Shown piece after piece: positions 1,929-19,653 of a stretch of 34,285 bases of DNA. The DNA lies in assembly GCA_018815765.1 (NCBI GenBank), contig JAHIWM010000198.1:1-34285 (forward strand). Reading direction: 5' to 3'. The notes beneath the pieces were generated by a model. The model saw only the letters and a list, made by a program, of their open reading frames with translations. It was not told the DNA's origin and did not search any database. Position numbers and translations under genes: made by a program. Numbering within the stretch: the first letter of the stretch is position 1; each line of letters starts with the position of its first letter. Origin of the DNA: Gammaproteobacteria bacterium (lineage in GTDB: Bacteria; Pseudomonadota; Gammaproteobacteria; Enterobacterales; Alteromonadaceae).

Positions 1929-4900
1929 ATGCTGCTGCGTTGCCTTAAATTTTGTCTGGCGCTTTGGCTTGTCTGCTGCAGCAGTGGTCTACACGCCTAT
2001 TTACAAGTGCAACCTATGGTGCACTCACGCCAGTCACAGCATTTAGCTATTGAGCTCTTTACTCAGGATAAATCCGGCTTGTTATGGTGGAGCACCAGCA
2101 CTCAGCTGCATCGCTTTGATGGCCATGATCATCAATCCTACAGCTTACCTGCCGAGTTACAAACTCAGGCTTTAGTCCAACTGCTGACTTTGGATCAACA
2201 TCAGTTATGGCTCGCCAGTGTCGATCAGCTTTGGTTGTTTGATCAAAAAAGTACGCAATTCCGCCGGATTTGGCAAAGTAAAGAGCCGATTAAGGCGTTG
2301 TTTTTATCCCTCAATGACGCTCCGTTGATTTTGACTGAACAGGAAATCTGGCAGTGGTCGGCCGAATCCAATGATGCGGCATTGTTATGGCGCAGCAGTA
2401 CCACAGCGGCGGGCTGGGCTCAGGGAGTCAGTGATGGCGTATCATTATGGCTCTGGTCCAAAGATGCCAAATTAGCCCGCTATGATTTAGCCAGTCAGAG
2501 CTGGCAACATTACCCGACGAATTTGCCGCAGCAAACCGACCTGGCTTTAGGGCCGGATCAACAGTTATGGCTGCTGGCACAAAATCAAACACTCTATCAG
2601 CTCAAACAGCAGCAACTTCAGCAGGTTGCCACACCAGATGATTTTTATGCCAGCGCATTGGAAGTAGATCCGCTAGGCCAGGTTTGGTTGCTATCGGCAA
2701 AAAAACTCTATTTGTACCAACCTGACACAGGGCGCTGGCAAACACAGCAGCTGGTACAACCCTGGGCTCAGTTATTTGCCGACCGCCACCAGAATATCTG
2801 GCTGGCAGATTCAGCCGGAGCTCTGGCTTTGGCTCAGTCTTCAGCTTTGGAAGTACAGGCCACCGATAAAACCTTATTATGGGATAACACGAATCAAAGC
2901 TGGCAACTGGATCAGCAGCATTTAGTGATGGTTAACCCACAGCAGGGTCAACAACAGACTTTAGCTTTCCCTTTTGCTTTGGAGCAGGTGAAAAAGTTTT
3001 GGTATCAACAACAGTATTTTATTTGGGTAGGCCAGCAAGTATGGCGTTATAACGAAAAAACAGCCAACTGGGTTTTGCTGCAACAGCAGCCGATAGTGGA
3101 TTTGACCCTTACTGACGATACCTTCTGGTACCTGACGCATCAAGGACTATGGCAATGGGATCCAACAGCTACAAATCCTGTATTAATCAGCGATCAGGCC
3201 AGCTGGGTATTAGTACGTTATCAGTCCGGACAGCTGTGGCTTTCCGGCAGTAACAGACTCTACTCCTATCAGTTGGCAGACCAGCAACTAAGCACATACA
3301 ACATCAGCAGCTGTAGCGTTCCACCTTGCCTGGATGTGCGGCAGGTTCTGGATTTAGTACCGGAACAACAAGGCTTGTGGCTGTTGACACCGGATCAGCT
3401 GTATCACTATGAAGCAGATCAAAACAACAACAAACTGACACTTACACTACAAAAGCAATGGCAGGTACCCTGGCAGCAACAACATATGCTGAAGCAGGAT
3501 CAACAGATCTGGCTCTGGTCCAGACAACAGCTTAGTTTGCTTGATCTGACCAGTCATTCTCTGCTGCAGTGGCAGCTGAATCAAGGGGAACATCTGCTGC
3601 CATTTCAGGCGCAACTGCTGAACAATCAGTTTTTGATCAACAGCTCCATTGGTCATTATCAGCTACCAGTCACTCAGCACAACCCCCTTGTCACAGCCAA
3701 TCCGCTGCGCCTGGAACTGCTTGCCGAAAATGGGCAACACCTGAAACAACAGGATCATCTGCTACAACTGGACAGTTGGGGTCCAGAACTGGAATTTCGT
3801 TTGAGCCATTACCCAACAGCAGGCAAACAGTGGAATTACTTTCGCTACAGTCTGAACCAGGCTCCGGCCGTGACGCTCACCTATCCGCAGCGCCAGTTCA
3901 AATTACAGCTGGACAACAGTGGTCAGTATCAACTCTCTATTGAAGCAAGTCAGGATCGCATGAGCTGGCTGCAGGCTGGCGATTACCAGCTGCAATTTAA
4001 CCGCTACTGGTGGATCCAACAAAGCTGGCTCTGGCTGATGCTGTTTTTATCTGTATTGATGCTCGCTCTGCTGTTATGGCGCTACCGTGTGCACCAAAAC
4101 CGTTTGCATCAAAGGCTGGAACAGCAGTTGATGATAAGCTCTTTGTTCGACAATACTCAGGATGCGGTGTGGTTAGGTGACGAACAACTACGTATTGAAA
4201 AAGTAAATCAGGCCTTTTGTCAGATCACTGGCTTTGATGCTAAACAAATGGAAGGTCAAACCCTACAGCTCTATACAGCACAGGGACATCAGACGGAGCT
4301 GCTGAAAACCATAGTGCAGCAGCTGCAGCAGTTCAGCTTCTGGCGTGGTGAAGTCTGGAGTAAAAAAGCCAATGGCGATAATTTTGCCTTGTCTTTAGCT
4401 ATTACTTTGCTATCAGGTAAAGGCGCACACGAACCTAAACTTTATCTGGCGATCTTTTCCGATGTGACTAACCGGAAGCTGAATGAACGTGAACTCCGTA
4501 AACTTAGCACCCGGGATCCGCTCACCCAACTGCCCAACCGCGCTTTGTTTCTGGAACATCTCGACAGAGCATTTTTCAGTTGCAGCAGCCGTTTCCCCCA
4601 CTTTGCGGTGTTGCTGGTTGATTTAGACCGTTTTGCCAAAATTAATGACTCCCTAGGCCACGACAGCGGTAACCTGTTGCTTCGAATGGTGGCAGAACGA
4701 CTACAAAAACAGCTGCCGGCAGGCTACATTCTGGCAAAATTAGGCATAGATGAATTTGCCATTCTGGTGCCATCCCATTTTAGTCTGGAGCAGTTTGATC
4801 TGTTGCTCAACCGTCTGAGCCTGCAGTTACTGCAGCAAATTCGTCAACCATTAGTATTGGGCGATTTGGAAATCACCCTGACGGCCAGTATCGGTATTGC

Positions 4901-5819
4901 GGTCTATCCTGACGATGGCCGCTCTTCGGATATTTTATTGCGCAGTGCCGATACAGCCTTGCACCATGCCAAACAAATGGGTCGCAACAATTCGCAATTT
5001 TTTAATGACAAGATGTTGCAGCGCACCCCGGAATATCTGGCGTTAGAAAGTGATTTATGGAGAGGGATCAGCCAGGGCGAATTCAAAGTGGTGTATCAGC
5101 CTAAATACAATGTCAGCAGCAATACCATAGTGGGTTATGAGGCTTTATGCCGCTGGCACAACCCAACCAGAGGTATGGTCTCCCCTGTGATGTTTATCCC
5201 TATTGCTGAAGAAAATGGCGTGATTATTCAGCTGGACCGGCTGGTATTCAGCCAGGTCTGTGCTCAAATCCAGCAATGGCAACAACAAGGCCGGATGCGT
5301 GGCCGTGTTGCGGTGAATTTGTCGGTACAACAGCTGCAGCAACCTGATTTACTGGATTTTTTACAACAGGAACTGCAGCACTATAAGCTGGACGCTAACC
5401 TGCTTGAGCTGGAAATCACCGAAACAGCCATGATGCGAGATGCAGATCACTGCCTTGAAGTGATGCATCAGCTTAAAGCTCTTGGTTTTACTCTGGCGCT
5501 GGATGATTTTGGTACCGGTTATTCGTCTTTGGGTTATCTGAAACGTTTCCCTATCGATACCTTAAAAATTGATCGGGCTTTTATCAAGGATATGGATACG
5601 TCCGAGCAAGACCGTAATATCACCTCCACCATTATCCGACTGGCTGGTTATCTGAAAATTGCGGTAGTCGCAGAAGGTGTTGAAACTGAAATGCAGGCGT
5701 ATTTACTGCACGTGATGGGATGTCAGGTGGTACAAGGTTATTTATTCAGCCCACCTGTCCATCCGGAACAAATTGCGTTGTTGTTAGATAAAGAACCGAA
5801 GAAAGAAAACGAATTGTAG
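1929..5819 (+). CDS. Membrane c-di-GMP phosphodiesterase: periplasmic propeller - PAS - degenerate GGDEF - EAL
   Basis: A 1296-aa sensor. Residues ~1-24 are a signal peptide. Residues ~25-580 are rich in W/Q/L blocks resembling the periplasmic two-component-regulator propeller, followed by a Y_Y_Y-like beta domain (~590-690). One transmembrane helix lies at ~699-718. The cytoplasmic part has a PAS domain (~735-850), a GGDEF domain (~860-1025) and an EAL domain (~1035-1285). The GGDEF signature reads LGIDEF, so the second glycine is replaced and cyclase activity is doubtful. The EAL domain looks active: YEALCRW, NLS, EITETAMM, LALDDFGTGYSSLGYLKRF, VAEGVET and QGYLFSPP are all present. I infer that it hydrolyses c-di-GMP in response to a periplasmic signal. 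GGGGA precedes the ATG. It stands alone, converging on gpsA across the 124-bp repeat. Confidence 0.9.
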   Translation: MLLRCLKFCLALWLVCCSSGLHAYLQVQPMVHSRQSQHLAIELFTQDKSGLLWWSTSTQLHRFDGHDHQSYSLPAELQTQALVQLLTLDQHQLWLASVDQLWLFDQKSTQFRRIWQSKEPIKALFLSLNDAPLILTEQEIWQWSAESNDAALLWRSSTTAAGWAQGVSDGVSLWLWSKDAKLARYDLASQSWQHYPTNLPQQTDLALGPDQQLWLLAQNQTLYQLKQQQLQQVATPDDFYASALEVDPLGQVWLLSAKKLYLYQPDTGRWQTQQLVQPWAQLFADRHQNIWLADSAGALALAQSSALEVQATDKTLLWDNTNQSWQLDQQHLVMVNPQQGQQQTLAFPFALEQVKKFWYQQQYFIWVGQQVWRYNEKTANWVLLQQQPIVDLTLTDDTFWYLTHQGLWQWDPTATNPVLISDQASWVLVRYQSGQLWLSGSNRLYSYQLADQQLSTYNISSCSVPPCLDVRQVLDLVPEQQGLWLLTPDQLYHYEADQNNNKLTLTLQKQWQVPWQQQHMLKQDQQIWLWSRQQLSLLDLTSHSLLQWQLNQGEHLLPFQAQLLNNQFLINSSIGHYQLPVTQHNPLVTANPLRLELLAENGQHLKQQDHLLQLDSWGPELEFRLSHYPTAGKQWNYFRYSLNQAPAVTLTYPQRQFKLQLDNSGQYQLSIEASQDRMSWLQAGDYQLQFNRYWWIQQSWLWLMLFLSVLMLALLLWRYRVHQNRLHQRLEQQLMISSLFDNTQDAVWLGDEQLRIEKVNQAFCQITGFDAKQMEGQTLQLYTAQGHQTELLKTIVQQLQQFSFWRGEVWSKKANGDNFALSLAITLLSGKGAHEPKLYLAIFSDVTNRKLNERELRKLSTRDPLTQLPNRALFLEHLDRAFFSCSSRFPHFAVLLVDLDRFAKINDSLGHDSGNLLLRMVAERLQKQLPAGYILAKLGIDEFAILVPSHFSLEQFDLLLNRLSLQLLQQIRQPLVLGDLEITLTASIGIAVYPDDGRSSDILLRSADTALHHAKQMGRNNSQFFNDKMLQRTPEYLALESDLWRGISQGEFKVVYQPKYNVSSNTIVGYEALCRWHNPTRGMVSPVMFIPIAEENGVIIQLDRLVFSQVCAQIQQWQQQGRMRGRVAVNLSVQQLQQPDLLDFLQQELQHYKLDANLLELEITETAMMRDADHCLEVMHQLKALGFTLALDDFGTGYSSLGYLKRFPIDTLKIDRAFIKDMDTSEQDRNITSTIIRLAGYLKIAVVAEGVETEMQAYLLHVMGCQVVQGYLFSPPVHPEQIALLLDKEPKKENEL

Positions 5820-13456: not shown

Positions 13457-14677
13457 ATGTATTGTTATGTCGCCCGTCAGCCTATTTTTGATCGCCAAAA
13501 AGCCGTAACAGGCTATGAATTGTTATTTCGGGATGGCATAAACAACTGTTTTCCTAACATTAATGCAGATGAAGCCACATCTAAGCTCATCACTCAGCAC
13601 CATTTATTGCTTGGGGTTGAAAAGATCACCAGCGGTAAACAAGCTTTTATTAACTTCTCAGCAGACACCTTAATTCACCACTTCCCTACTTCTATAGATC
13701 CAAACAGCATGGTGATCGAAATCCTCGAAACCGTGCCTATCAGTGATGAACTGCTGACCGCCTGTAAAGAACTGCATAAAATGGGTTATCGCCTGGCACT
13801 AGACGATCATGATTTTGATGCCAAGTGGGACGTGTTTTTACCTTATGTCAGCATTATTAAGGTGGATGTGCAGATGTTTAACATACTGCAAATCAGCAAA
13901 TATTTGCGCCGTATTGCTAAATACCCCGTCACTTTACTGGCAGAAAAAGTAGAAACGGCTGACGAATACGAACAACTTAAACAGTTGGGTTTTGATTTAT
14001 ATCAGGGCTACTTTTTTGCGCGCCCGGAAATGCTGAAGCACAAACAACTGGGAAGTAACAAACTGAATCTGCTGGCTCTTATCGGCGAATCCAGCAAAGT
14101 ACGACTGGATTTTGATGTACTGGCGGCCATAGTCGAACGTGATTTGGATATGTCGTACAAATTGCTGCGCTTCATAAACAGTGTCAATTTTGCCCGCAAA
14201 CAGAGTATAGGGTCACTGAAGCATGCCATGGTTTATATGGGAGAGGCTGAACTGAAGAAGTTTATCTCCCTGCTTGCCCTCGCGAATCTGGCAGAAGGCC
14301 AATCCGATGAGTTGTTAGTGATGTCGCTGATCCGTGCACGCTTTTGTGACCGTCTGGCTAATATTCGTGGCGACACAGAAAATCCGCCAGCTGCCTTTTT
14401 AACAGGTTTGTTTTCTTTGGTGGATGCCTTGCTGGAGCAACCATTGGAAGAGTTACTGGCGCAATTGCCGTTGTTACCCGAAATAAAAGCAGCCTTGCTG
14501 GAAAATAAAGGCGTGTTGGCGGATTATCTGACGGTTGAACGTACTTTTGAGCATGGTTTATGGCAACAACAAACTGAACTGTCGTCCCGCATGGTGCCGG
14601 AGACAGTCGATTTAAACCTGGTTTATTTTGAGGCTGTGGAATGGGGGCAACGCCTGCTGACAGTACAGCAACATTAA
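13457..14677 (+). CDS. EAL-HDOD signalling protein with degenerate EAL domain
   Basis: A soluble 406-aa protein with an N-terminal EAL-like domain (~1-195) and a C-terminal HDOD domain (~205-400), the YuxH-type arrangement. The EAL catalytic signatures are worn: EAL reads YELLFRD, the DDFGTG loop reads LALDDHDF, though IEILET, LAEKVET and LYQGYFFARPE remain recognisable. It is unlikely to be an efficient phosphodiesterase and may instead bind c-di-GMP or a partner protein. The HDOD part begins near LLALIGESSK and includes the helical FINSVNF and SLKHAMVYMG segments. Members of this class affect motility and biofilm formation in other gammaproteobacteria. TAAGG lies upstream of the ATG. It converges on ftsX. 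Confidence 0.88.
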   Translation: MYCYVARQPIFDRQKAVTGYELLFRDGINNCFPNINADEATSKLITQHHLLLGVEKITSGKQAFINFSADTLIHHFPTSIDPNSMVIEILETVPISDELLTACKELHKMGYRLALDDHDFDAKWDVFLPYVSIIKVDVQMFNILQISKYLRRIAKYPVTLLAEKVETADEYEQLKQLGFDLYQGYFFARPEMLKHKQLGSNKLNLLALIGESSKVRLDFDVLAAIVERDLDMSYKLLRFINSVNFARKQSIGSLKHAMVYMGEAELKKFISLLALANLAEGQSDELLVMSLIRARFCDRLANIRGDTENPPAAFLTGLFSLVDALLEQPLEELLAQLPLLPEIKAALLENKGVLADYLTVERTFEHGLWQQQTELSSRMVPETVDLNLVYFEAVEWGQRLLTVQQH

Positions 14678-17641: not shown

Positions 17642-18238
17642 ATGAAAACAGCAAAGGGCCGCAGTACAGCTCCGGCACATCAGGGGCCAGGTTTTGTCAG
17701 GCTGATTAGTGGCAAATGGAAAGGCCGGCGTTTACCCGTTTTGGATGCCGCAGGATTAAGACCAACTTCAGACAGAGTCAAAGAAACACTGTTCAACTGG
17801 CTGATGCAGGACGTGGCGGGCAGCACTGTACTCGATTGTTTTGCTGGTAGCGGCAGCTTGGGTTTAGAAGCGTTATCGCGTTATGCCGATTTTGTCTTGT
17901 TACTGGAAAAAGAAGCCAAAGCAGCGACTTTACTGAAACAACATCTAAAAAGTCTGGGCAGCGACCAAGCTGAAGTTCTGCAGACAGACACTTTGTTGTG
18001 GCTACAAAAACCAGCAGTGCGTCAGTTTGATTTGGTTTTTATTGATCCACCTTTCCGACAAGATATGGCGCTACCTTGCTGTAAAGCCTTGGCAGAACAA
18101 GGTTGGCTCAAACCCGGTGCACTGATTTATCTGGAAACAGAAAAAGAACTGGCTTTGGATCAGCTTCCGGCAGATTGGCTGTTATTAAAGGAAAAAGTGG
18201 CAGGGCAACTGGCTTATAGGCTCTGGCAACAACCTTAA
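17642..18238 (+). CDS. rsmD: 16S rRNA (guanine-966-N2)-methyltransferase RsmD
   Basis: SAM-dependent enzyme that methylates G966 of 16S rRNA in the assembled 30S subunit. The 198-aa product aligns well with E. coli RsmD (198 aa): GKWKGRRLPV, LRPTSDRVKETLFNWL, the SAM-binding LDCFAGSGSLGLEALSR, the catalytic-type DPPF in FIDPPFRQ, and KEKVAGQLAYRLWQQ at the end. It is divergent from ftsY, the usual gamma context. Translation starts from a weakly preceded ATG; no earlier in-frame start fits. It ends at a strong hairpin terminator. Confidence 0.96.
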   Translation: MKTAKGRSTAPAHQGPGFVRLISGKWKGRRLPVLDAAGLRPTSDRVKETLFNWLMQDVAGSTVLDCFAGSGSLGLEALSRYADFVLLLEKEAKAATLLKQHLKSLGSDQAEVLQTDTLLWLQKPAVRQFDLVFIDPPFRQDMALPCCKALAEQGWLKPGALIYLETEKELALDQLPADWLLLKEKVAGQLAYRLWQQP

Positions 18239-18250
18239 ACCCGAAAACAG

Positions 18251-18274
18251 AAAAGGCGCCATCAGGCGCCTTTT
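18251..18274. terminator. Bidirectional rho-independent terminator between rsmD and the DUF3718 gene
   Basis: AAAAGGCGCC - ATCA - GGCGCCTTTT is a perfect 10-bp stem with a 4-base loop and T-runs on both strands. It sits between two convergent genes and can serve both. Confidence 0.9.
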
Positions 18275-18290
18275 CCAAATAAAAATTCGA

Positions 18291-18659
18291 TTAGCTTGCG
18301 CTACGGGCTTTGATTGCTTCCAGGATTGGAGAAGCAGCAAAACCATTGCTGGTTGCCCACTCCAGATCACCTGATTTAGCAACCTGACTACCTGGCAACT
18401 GCTTGATGATGAATTCAGCTGTGTCAGCTGCGTTGTGTTTAATAGCGTGACGAACTAAAGGTAAGCCATCACAAACGATACCATCATACACGTTCTTTAA
18501 ACGCATACGGTTGTCAGATAAAGTTTTGCGAAGGTTATTTTTGTTGTTATCAGCCACATAAGCACAGATAGATTGGACGGTCTGATCATTTGCAGAAGCA
18601 ACAGGTGCAACAAATTGAACAGCAGCGATGGCGATTAAAGCAACAAATTTAAATTTCAT
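18291..18659 (-). CDS. Small exported DUF3718 protein under a probable c-di-GMP riboswitch
   Basis: A 122-aa protein with a clear signal peptide (residues 1-23, ending SASA-like at VASA/NDQ), so it is predicted to be periplasmic or secreted. The mature part has the features I associate with DUF3718: ICAYVADN, NRMRLKNVYDGIVCDG and FIIKQLPGS, with two cysteines (in ICAYV and IVCDG) that could form a disulfide. The family function is unknown. The gene is monocistronic: its own promoter lies at 18918-18946, its leader is about 250 bases, and a strong terminator follows. The ribosome site GGAGCTT is good. A c-di-GMP-controlled leader suggests a role in the surface, biofilm or motility switch, but that is inference. 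Confidence 0.85.
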   Translation of the reverse strand: MKFKFVALIAIAAVQFVAPVASANDQTVQSICAYVADNNKNNLRKTLSDNRMRLKNVYDGIVCDGLPLVRHAIKHNAADTAEFIIKQLPGSQVAKSGDLEWATSNGFAASPILEAIKARSAS

Positions 18660-18662
18660 AAC

Positions 18663-18783
18663 AAGCTCCGGTGTTGGCTAACACTGATCTCAAGATCAGG
18701 CTGATTGGTCTGTATAAACAGGCTGAAACTTCAACAACAGCATATTTGCCGTTATTTATCAGCGAACACGAAAGGAGGAGCTT
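18663..18783 (-). promoter_or_regulatory. Possible Shine-Dalgarno-sequestering expression platform
   Basis: On the minus strand AAGCTCC (18783 to 18777) is exactly complementary to the ribosome site GGAGCTT (18669 to 18663) that precedes the DUF3718 ATG. Between them are two tight hairpins, CTGATCT-TG-AGATCAG and GTGTT-AGCC-AACAC, which would bring the two segments together. Just before AAGCTCC lies another hairpin, CCAG-TTCG-CTGG. This layout suggests control of translation initiation by the upstream aptamer. Confidence 0.5.
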
Positions 18784-18829
18784 TGATACCAGCGAACTGG
18801 CTTAGATGCGTCCTACGTAATCATCAGAT

Positions 18830-18910
18830 TACGGCAGCCCAGCCATCGTAGGTTTCCCCTTAGATCTGCAGCTTTGCGTGTACTCCCTTTCGGGAGACTT
18901 GCCTTTCGAG
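18830..18910 (-). ncRNA. c-di-GMP-I (GEMM) riboswitch aptamer
   Basis: Read on the minus strand, the leader contains in order: GGCAAGT, a CTCCC-GAAA-GGGAG hairpin, the strongly conserved ACGCAAAGC (18879 to 18871), CTAAGG / CCTACGATGG resembling the GAAA-tetraloop receptor arms, and GGCTGGGCTGCCG at the 3' side. These match the order and spacing of the GEMM-I consensus, in which the tetraloop docks into the CUAAG/UAUGG receptor and c-di-GMP sits in the three-way junction. The GGC...GCC pair in the last element replaces GGU...ACC of the Vibrio example, a compensatory change. The transcript from the upstream promoter would begin right at the aptamer. Confidence 0.85.
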
Positions 18911-18917
18911 CGCGCGC

Positions 18918-18946
18918 ATTTTAAGCAGGCAGCGCTTTTTATGCAA
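18918..18946 (-). promoter_or_regulatory. Sigma-70 promoter for the riboswitch/DUF3718 transcript
   Basis: On the minus strand TTGCAT (18946 to 18941), a 17-base spacer, and TAAAAT (18923 to 18918), followed by a GC-rich discriminator (GCGCGCGC). Both boxes and spacing are near consensus. Transcription should start near 18911, directly ahead of the aptamer. The GC-rich discriminator is the type associated with growth-rate or ppGpp sensitivity. Confidence 0.75.
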
Positions 18947-19020
18947 GAAGAATTTTAACCTTGTTTAACAAAGTTAAAGTATTGACTCTAAAAGAACTAT
19001 TCATCCAGACAGCAAGACTT

Positions 19021-19653
19021 TTAGCCGTCTGAGTTTTGAGTTTCAGGAACAAGCTCCATACCCAGATTGCTTAATCCTTGTTCACGTACCCAGGCTTTCA
19101 GCATTTGCACTTGCTCGCGCTGGAAACCATCATTTAATGGTGTCACCAGCTCAATCAATTCTGACAGACAGTCCATTTCATATTCCATGAGCTCATGATC
19201 GCGCACCCACTTTTTCAATTCAGCTTCAGTGGTAATGTCGATATCCTCAGCCTGATATTCAATTAAGCGGGCAACTGAGGCCTGAGAAATTTTAGCCACG
19301 TTAACAAACTCAGTCGCATCCTGTGACAAAATGCCATTTAACATCGAATCCAAAGCTGTCGCCGTATCAATAGCCGGATACACACCAAACATATCAAACT
19401 GACTTTGGTCTGGTGTCGCAAGCTCTAACTCATTGCATAAACGCTCAAAGTTAATTTTAACTTTTTTTACAAACAGCCATTCCCACACCAGATTCAGAAT
19501 ATCACGGCATAACTTGGTATCGCCAAAACCTGTGACTTCACTAAATAGCTGATAATTGGGTAACATACGTTCCAGCAAAGTAGCAGCTATAGCTGCTTGC
19601 TGATAAAACCCCAGTTCACGCATATTCTGGAAGTTGTTTGCTTTTTGTTTCAT
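19021..19653 (-). CDS. DUF416 family protein (YjaG type)
   Basis: A 210-aa cytosolic protein of unknown function in the DUF416/YjaG family. Matching blocks include LLERMLPNYQLFSEVTGFGD, LCRDILNLVWEWL, VKINFERL and FDMFGVYPAIDTATAL, which are close to E. coli YjaG. No catalytic motif is evident, and it has no signal peptide or membrane helix. The tail is rich in acidic residues and ends a little differently from YjaG. It appears monocistronic, with the 368-base riboswitch leader and promoter of the next gene downstream and the DUF2721 gene divergent upstream. Confidence 0.85.
   Translation of the reverse strand: MKQKANNFQNMRELGFYQQAAIAATLLERMLPNYQLFSEVTGFGDTKLCRDILNLVWEWLFVKKVKINFERLCNELELATPDQSQFDMFGVYPAIDTATALDSMLNGILSQDATEFVNVAKISQASVARLIEYQAEDIDITTEAELKKWVRDHELMEYEMDCLSELIELVTPLNDGFQREQVQMLKAWVREQGLSNLGMELVPETQNSDG

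Follow-up and report, generated by a model that had tools for sequence, protein, structure and literature searches.

Several riboswitches described from other bacteria resemble the RNA studied here. Vc1, located before gbpA in Vibrio cholerae, belongs to the class I c-di-GMP (GEMM-I) family and is described as an 'on' switch; neither a terminator nor an anti-Shine-Dalgarno sequence was apparent to its authors, and the expression platforms of the V. cholerae GEMM-I RNAs are described as unclear (PMC4744006, in excerpt). The ligand contacts of Vc2 were given as G20, A47 and C92 (PMC4744006, in excerpt). Cd1 is a transcriptional OFF switch, and the pilM riboswitch, which takes cGAMP as ligand and was studied for transcriptional control, follows an ON logic in which the aptamer and an alternative fold are mutually exclusive (excerpted text of PMC9262584).

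The window analysed here is a stretch of 34,285 nucleotides from a bacterium whose closest named relatives are Rheinheimera, a water bacterium. Scanning the whole window with cmscan gave one Rfam match that reached its gathering score, namely RF01051 (GEMM-I, E 3e-9), which covered model positions 1-87 of 87. The aptamer was located in the 5' leader of a DUF3718 gene, 170 nt from its ATG and on the same strand (Table 1). It shares with Vc1 the aptamer family, the contact motifs, a long 5' leader, an exported protein gene and a gammaproteobacterial host, and with Cd1 and Vc2 the sequence and structure of the aptamer, while the target is DUF3718 instead of GbpA (PMC4744006, in excerpt) or the target families of Cd1 and Vc2. 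A candidate anti-Shine-Dalgarno strand sets the window leader apart from Vc1; unlike what is described for Cd1, no rho-independent terminator was found on the strand of the gene in 18200-19100, including the region from aptamer to start codon, and the two terminator-like sites found in that interval were both on the opposite strand. Mutually exclusive folds, as in the pilM riboswitch, are also proposed here.

Table 1. Features of the riboswitch-DUF3718 locus, in positions of the window
Feature	Position	Strand	Basis
c-di-GMP-I (GEMM-I) riboswitch aptamer	18830..18913	-	RF01051, 59.0 bits (gathering cut-off 35 bits); covarying consensus structure in 44 DUF3718-linked aptamers
DUF3718 gene, 122 aa	18291..18659	-	PF12514, 66.2 bits (cut-off 22.5)
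Putative -35 element TTGCAT	18941..18946	-	sequence reading; most relatives carry a similar hexamer here (by eye)
Putative -10 element TAAAAT	18918..18923	-	sequence reading; spacer 17
CGAAAGG, 5' edge of aptamer, candidate anti-aptamer partner	18902..18908	-	includes G 18902; equivalence by motif
CCUUUCG, candidate anti-aptamer strand	18769..18775	-	ungapped 7-bp helix with CGAAAGG, p=0.066
AAGCUCC, candidate anti-Shine-Dalgarno strand	18777..18783	-	pairs with GGAGCUU in the minimum-energy fold
GGAGCUU, ribosome-binding site region	18663..18669	-	GGAGC invariant before the start codon in 23/23 aligned leaders

The first-pass annotation had read a GEMM-I riboswitch before a DUF3718 gene in 18830-18923, a segment comprising the aptamer and the -10 element, and both assignments were borne out by the profile searches. 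The motifs which it listed in GEMM-I order, AAAGGCAA, the GAAA-capped P2, ACGCAAAGC, CTAAGG...CCTACGATGG and GGCTGGGCTGCCG, were all present. Upstream, a DUF416 gene on the same strand ended 107 nt before the aptamer, and downstream of the DUF3718 gene a methyltransferase gene (Cons_hypoth95) was in the opposite orientation, thus the DUF3718 gene looks monocistronic. The two EAL proteins pointed out in the window were also confirmed. One is a large PAS-GGDEF-EAL protein (1929-5819, +), which is a GGDEF protein as well, and another is an EAL-HDOD protein (13457-14677, +), whose EAL domain may be incomplete since the match spans only profile positions 108-236 of 236. As support for a c-di-GMP link the two genes are circumstantial, and the conclusions rest on other evidence.

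The promoter had been called consensus-like, which proved too strong a description. TTGCAT-N17-TAAAAT matched 8/12 consensus letters by hand count, below the scan threshold of 9, and the consensus promoter scan reported no site, with 1.6 expected in shuffles. A similar TTGCA-/TA-AAT-like pair could be seen by eye at the same position in most of 30 Rheinheimera leaders, so the promoter is likely real, and transcription would be expected to start near 18911, judged from the putative -10 element.

Within the genus Rheinheimera, GEMM-I was found just upstream of the closest DUF3718 orthologue (67-100% identity) in 22/22 genomes, 21 of them read from the loci and one (G015) from the coordinates of the aptamer and gene matches. 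The aptamer was also present at 29/29 named orthologue loci, a set which overlaps with the 22 genomes as the same strains occur under two labels. No aptamer was present at the 11 Rheinheimera DUF3718 paralogue loci or at 29 more DUF3718 loci (three from the genus), giving 0/40 for the other loci examined (38 genes, two present twice; flanks of about 1500 nt, less at contig ends), while 11/11 linked loci gave the aptamer as positive control in the same search. The pairing of aptamer and gene is selective among DUF3718 genes.

Of 196 sampled genomes of the family, 120 had GEMM-I and 186 had DUF3718. For 40 other genera, represented by one genome each and picked for having GEMM-I, 84 GEMM-I and at least 150 DUF3718 places (the best 150) were obtained. 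In this set a DUF3718 domain followed 28/84 GEMM-I on the same strand at a distance of 144-223 bp, against about 0.02 pairs expected by chance if 4-Mb genomes are assumed. They were distributed over 19/40 genera, two of which (G038 and G063) resemble Rheinheimera relatives by leader sequence, and nine genomes had two pairs each. The window protein is a member of Pfam DUF3718 (PF12514) by profile score, and most members listed were without GEMM-I upstream (28 paired aptamers vs at least 150 DUF3718 places). Outside the family, 40 genomes of the order were picked for DUF3718, 25 of which had GEMM-I; 37 GEMM-I were found and 30 were read, and a DUF3718 gene was downstream in 3/30, in two families. 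In the family search, the 30 GEMM-I with the highest scores had other targets, with no DUF3718 downstream.

For the 56 unpaired GEMM-I, 55 regions were taken, the remaining one being half of a tandem. Seven regions had no ORF by the rule used, and another 13 dropped out because their proteins were doubtful (6) or long (7). The scan comprised the proteins of the other 35 of the 55 regions plus the MotY-like protein of the own genome. Among these 36 proteins the targets were GGDEF (8), MotY_N (6, the own-genome one included) and ParA-like ATPases (4). DUF3718 is the most frequent GEMM-I target family among those identified in the sample. The leader survey found the pairing recurrent, and the claim of the first-pass annotation that DUF3718 is a c-di-GMP target gene appears well supported by comparative genomics.

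Other arrangements were observed in the same material. The second GEMM-I of the own genome (L001, C186:37145-37233, -) precedes a MotY_N-OmpA gene, and a MotY_N gene followed GEMM-I in 5/35 of the other downstream proteins scanned. A tandem GEMM-I, 12 nt apart, was found before a small exported-looking protein (G092:C4:92404-92596, -). In addition, a guanidine-II riboswitch was located just 3' of the DUF3718 gene in L143 (3474-3518, +) and also in L144, L146, L147, L149 and L151; in L143 it precedes a small membrane-protein ORF (3540-3854) that looks by eye like a small multidrug-resistance-type transporter, which is the ordinary arrangement for this class.

Between the aptamer and the start codon, complementarity to the 5' edge of the aptamer recurred among leaders with differing letters, as in CGAAAGG/CCUUUCG, GAAGGGCA/UGCCCUUC, AGAAACG/CGUUUCU and AGAAAAGGC/GUUUUUUCU. 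All helix p-values were calculated against shuffles preserving base composition only. In the ungapped test, applied to the first up to four leaders per group (24 of 58), p<=0.05 was reached in 13/24. Taken one by one the helices are weak, that of the window itself giving p=0.066. A GAAGGGCA/UGCCCUUC-like helix gave p 0.002-0.05 in three leaders of one Rheinheimera group, and two further types were found in other genera, while the anti-aptamer helix failed the ungapped test in the three leaders of one Rheinheimera subgroup (p=0.32-0.74). When strands and edges were cross-compared, both types of the other genera paired best with their own 5' edges, whereas the strands of several Rheinheimera groups paired equally well or better with the edge of another group; the single UJ63 platform paired better with the edges of other groups, and the strand of the window group paired better with the UJ63 edge. 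A looser duplex test, superseded by the ungapped one, gave p<=0.05 in 2/30 Rheinheimera leaders, 0/2 near relatives, 14/15 class-A leaders and 1/11 class-B leaders. Alignment A3 was built without L209, whose leader is that of L147, and without 16 of the 29 named rows.

When leaders were folded with the aptamer enforced and again without it, access to the Shine-Dalgarno region did not shift consistently. By conditional folding, the unpaired probability of the window Shine-Dalgarno was 0.01 in the free and 0.10 in the bound state, low in both. For the window leader, pairing of the ribosome-binding site directly to the 5' strand of P3, as in some relatives, was tried and rejected (p=0.846). In leaders of one DUF3718 class from other genera (L183, L185, L186, L188-L191, L193, L197, L201-L204 and L210), GGTTTTTTCTTTT lies about 15-26 nt after the aptamer and is complementary to its 5' edge; in most of these leaders it is preceded by a GTGG that can pair with P3, a terminator-like arrangement.

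The identity of the aptamer, its conservation and its linkage to DUF3718 were established by computation. The GGC, CGCAAA and CC positions were invariant in 44/44 aligned DUF3718-linked aptamers, and 15/20 consensus pairs were changed on both sides, supporting the P2 and P3 helices. Such an aptamer might nevertheless bind 3',3'-cGAMP instead of c-di-GMP, as some GEMM-I relatives do, and cGAMP riboswitches were originally annotated as c-di-GMP riboswitches (PMC9262584, in excerpt). A GEMM-I in which G20 of Vc2 is changed to A was examined in complex with cGAMP (PMC6274999, in excerpt). The presumed equivalent of G20, the G at 18902, is G in 44/44 linked aptamers, an equivalence placed by motif as for A47 and C92, with the contact letter of each motif assigned by hand. 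This G disfavours cGAMP and led us to reject cGAMP specificity, which we regard as extremely improbable. Nearly as improbable is a decayed, non-regulating aptamer present by descent: some GEMM-I copies of C. difficile are reported non-functional (PMC6366702, in excerpt), yet the full-length match, the invariant core, the compensatory changes and the placement kept across many genera argue against decay here. We retain c-di-GMP as the probable ligand, and a c-di-GMP class I riboswitch in a single-gene DUF3718 leader, acting through a candidate anti-aptamer helix with a predicted translational effect, is a highly probable reading of the locus as a whole.

Within this reading, ligand binding, the switching helix, the effect on translation and its direction are inferred. 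Transcription would begin at, or slightly before, the aptamer. High c-di-GMP would let the aptamer fold around its ligand; at low c-di-GMP, the CGAAAGG of the 5' edge would be free and could pair with CCUUUCG about 54 nt past the aptamer, by which the closing region of the aptamer would be undone. The exchange between aptamer and anti-aptamer helix would change how accessible the Shine-Dalgarno region of the DUF3718 gene is, and the small exported ankyrin-like protein would be produced according to the c-di-GMP level, alongside other GEMM-I targets such as the MotY-like protein. For the window gene an ON switch is somewhat favoured, a preference helped by the precedent of Vc1, which is described as an 'on' switch in the excerpted source cited above. 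The opposite direction has a smaller but real share of the probability. As an OFF switch, the bound aptamer would leave the downstream strand free, AAGCUCC would pair with GGAGCUU and translation would stop, and without ligand CGAAAGG would capture the neighbouring strand and the site would open. The window leader, folded at minimum energy, does contain the AAGCUCC/GGAGCUU pairing, but on paper the two helices could coexist, and the computed access to the ribosome-binding site is low in both states. ON control also fits what is seen in related leaders. In 6/30 Rheinheimera leaders (L133, L134, L136, L137, L139 and L148) the site complements the 5' strand of P3 (p 0.005-0.035), and in class A of the other genera a U-tract follows an anti-P3 strand (12/15 at p<=0.05), an arrangement which the ON logic of the pilM riboswitch resembles (PMC9262584, in excerpt). 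Neither the P3-complementary site nor the anti-P3/U-tract arrangement holds for the window leader itself.

On a protein tree of 76 rows, whose unlinked rows were the best Pfam hits and the Rheinheimera paralogues, a non-random sample, the GEMM-I label required four changes, or three in a second tree which omitted the four long branches L004, L006, L121 and L173. A single clade of linked genes was rejected (AU p=0.034). The linked genes formed about three groups, and the Rheinheimera linked gene clustered with its own unlinked paralogues, away from the linked genes of the remaining genera. The pattern suggests either separate couplings or one old coupling lost many times, a reading kept tentative because the alignment is short.

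The DUF3718 protein has, by eye, a signal-peptide-like N-terminus ending VASA-ND, and two cysteines (32 and 63) were invariant in 19/19 aligned orthologues. With 19 of 30 proteins as input, AlphaFold2 produced a helical domain with a mean pLDDT of 80.8 and a pTM of 0.70, the five models ranging from 53 to 81 in mean pLDDT. Among the 50 Foldseek matches listed against the PDB, most were ankyrin or DARPin chains (probability up to 1.00, TMq about 0.53, best E 0.2), with none at E 0.001. No ankyrin family appeared among the Pfam matches listed up to E 10, and a PDB sequence search with the DUF3718 profile gave no match up to E 1. DUF3718 is predicted as an exported ankyrin-like helical domain, and to regard it as a binding domain of that kind is a fair guess. 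Exported ankyrin proteins that bind envelope enzymes exist. Since the riboswitch pairing recurs in many related genera, the protein probably belongs to a surface or motility response.

No mention of DUF3718 or PF12514 was found in the literature searched, a body of text that most subscription journals lie outside, and the GEMM-I/DUF3718 association was not met there either. The suggestion that the riboswitch gives the family its first clear physiological link agrees with this search, within the same reach. As a riboswitch of a known class the RNA is ordinary, and its target family is recurrent and apparently unreported. A wider picture may be offered as speculation, on balance doubtful: DUF3718 would be a common GEMM-I target family in Alteromonadales-type bacteria. 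It would have come under c-di-GMP control on about three separate occasions, and its exported, ankyrin-like product would act as an adaptor, binding a partner in the envelope at the change between swimming and surface life.

The pairing extends the list of GEMM-I targets in gammaproteobacteria, and DUF3718, a family of unknown function present in most of the sampled family genomes, gains a testable place in c-di-GMP signalling. Because control by a riboswitch is in cis, a point mutation of the aptamer would uncouple regulation of the DUF3718 gene from the remaining c-di-GMP response.
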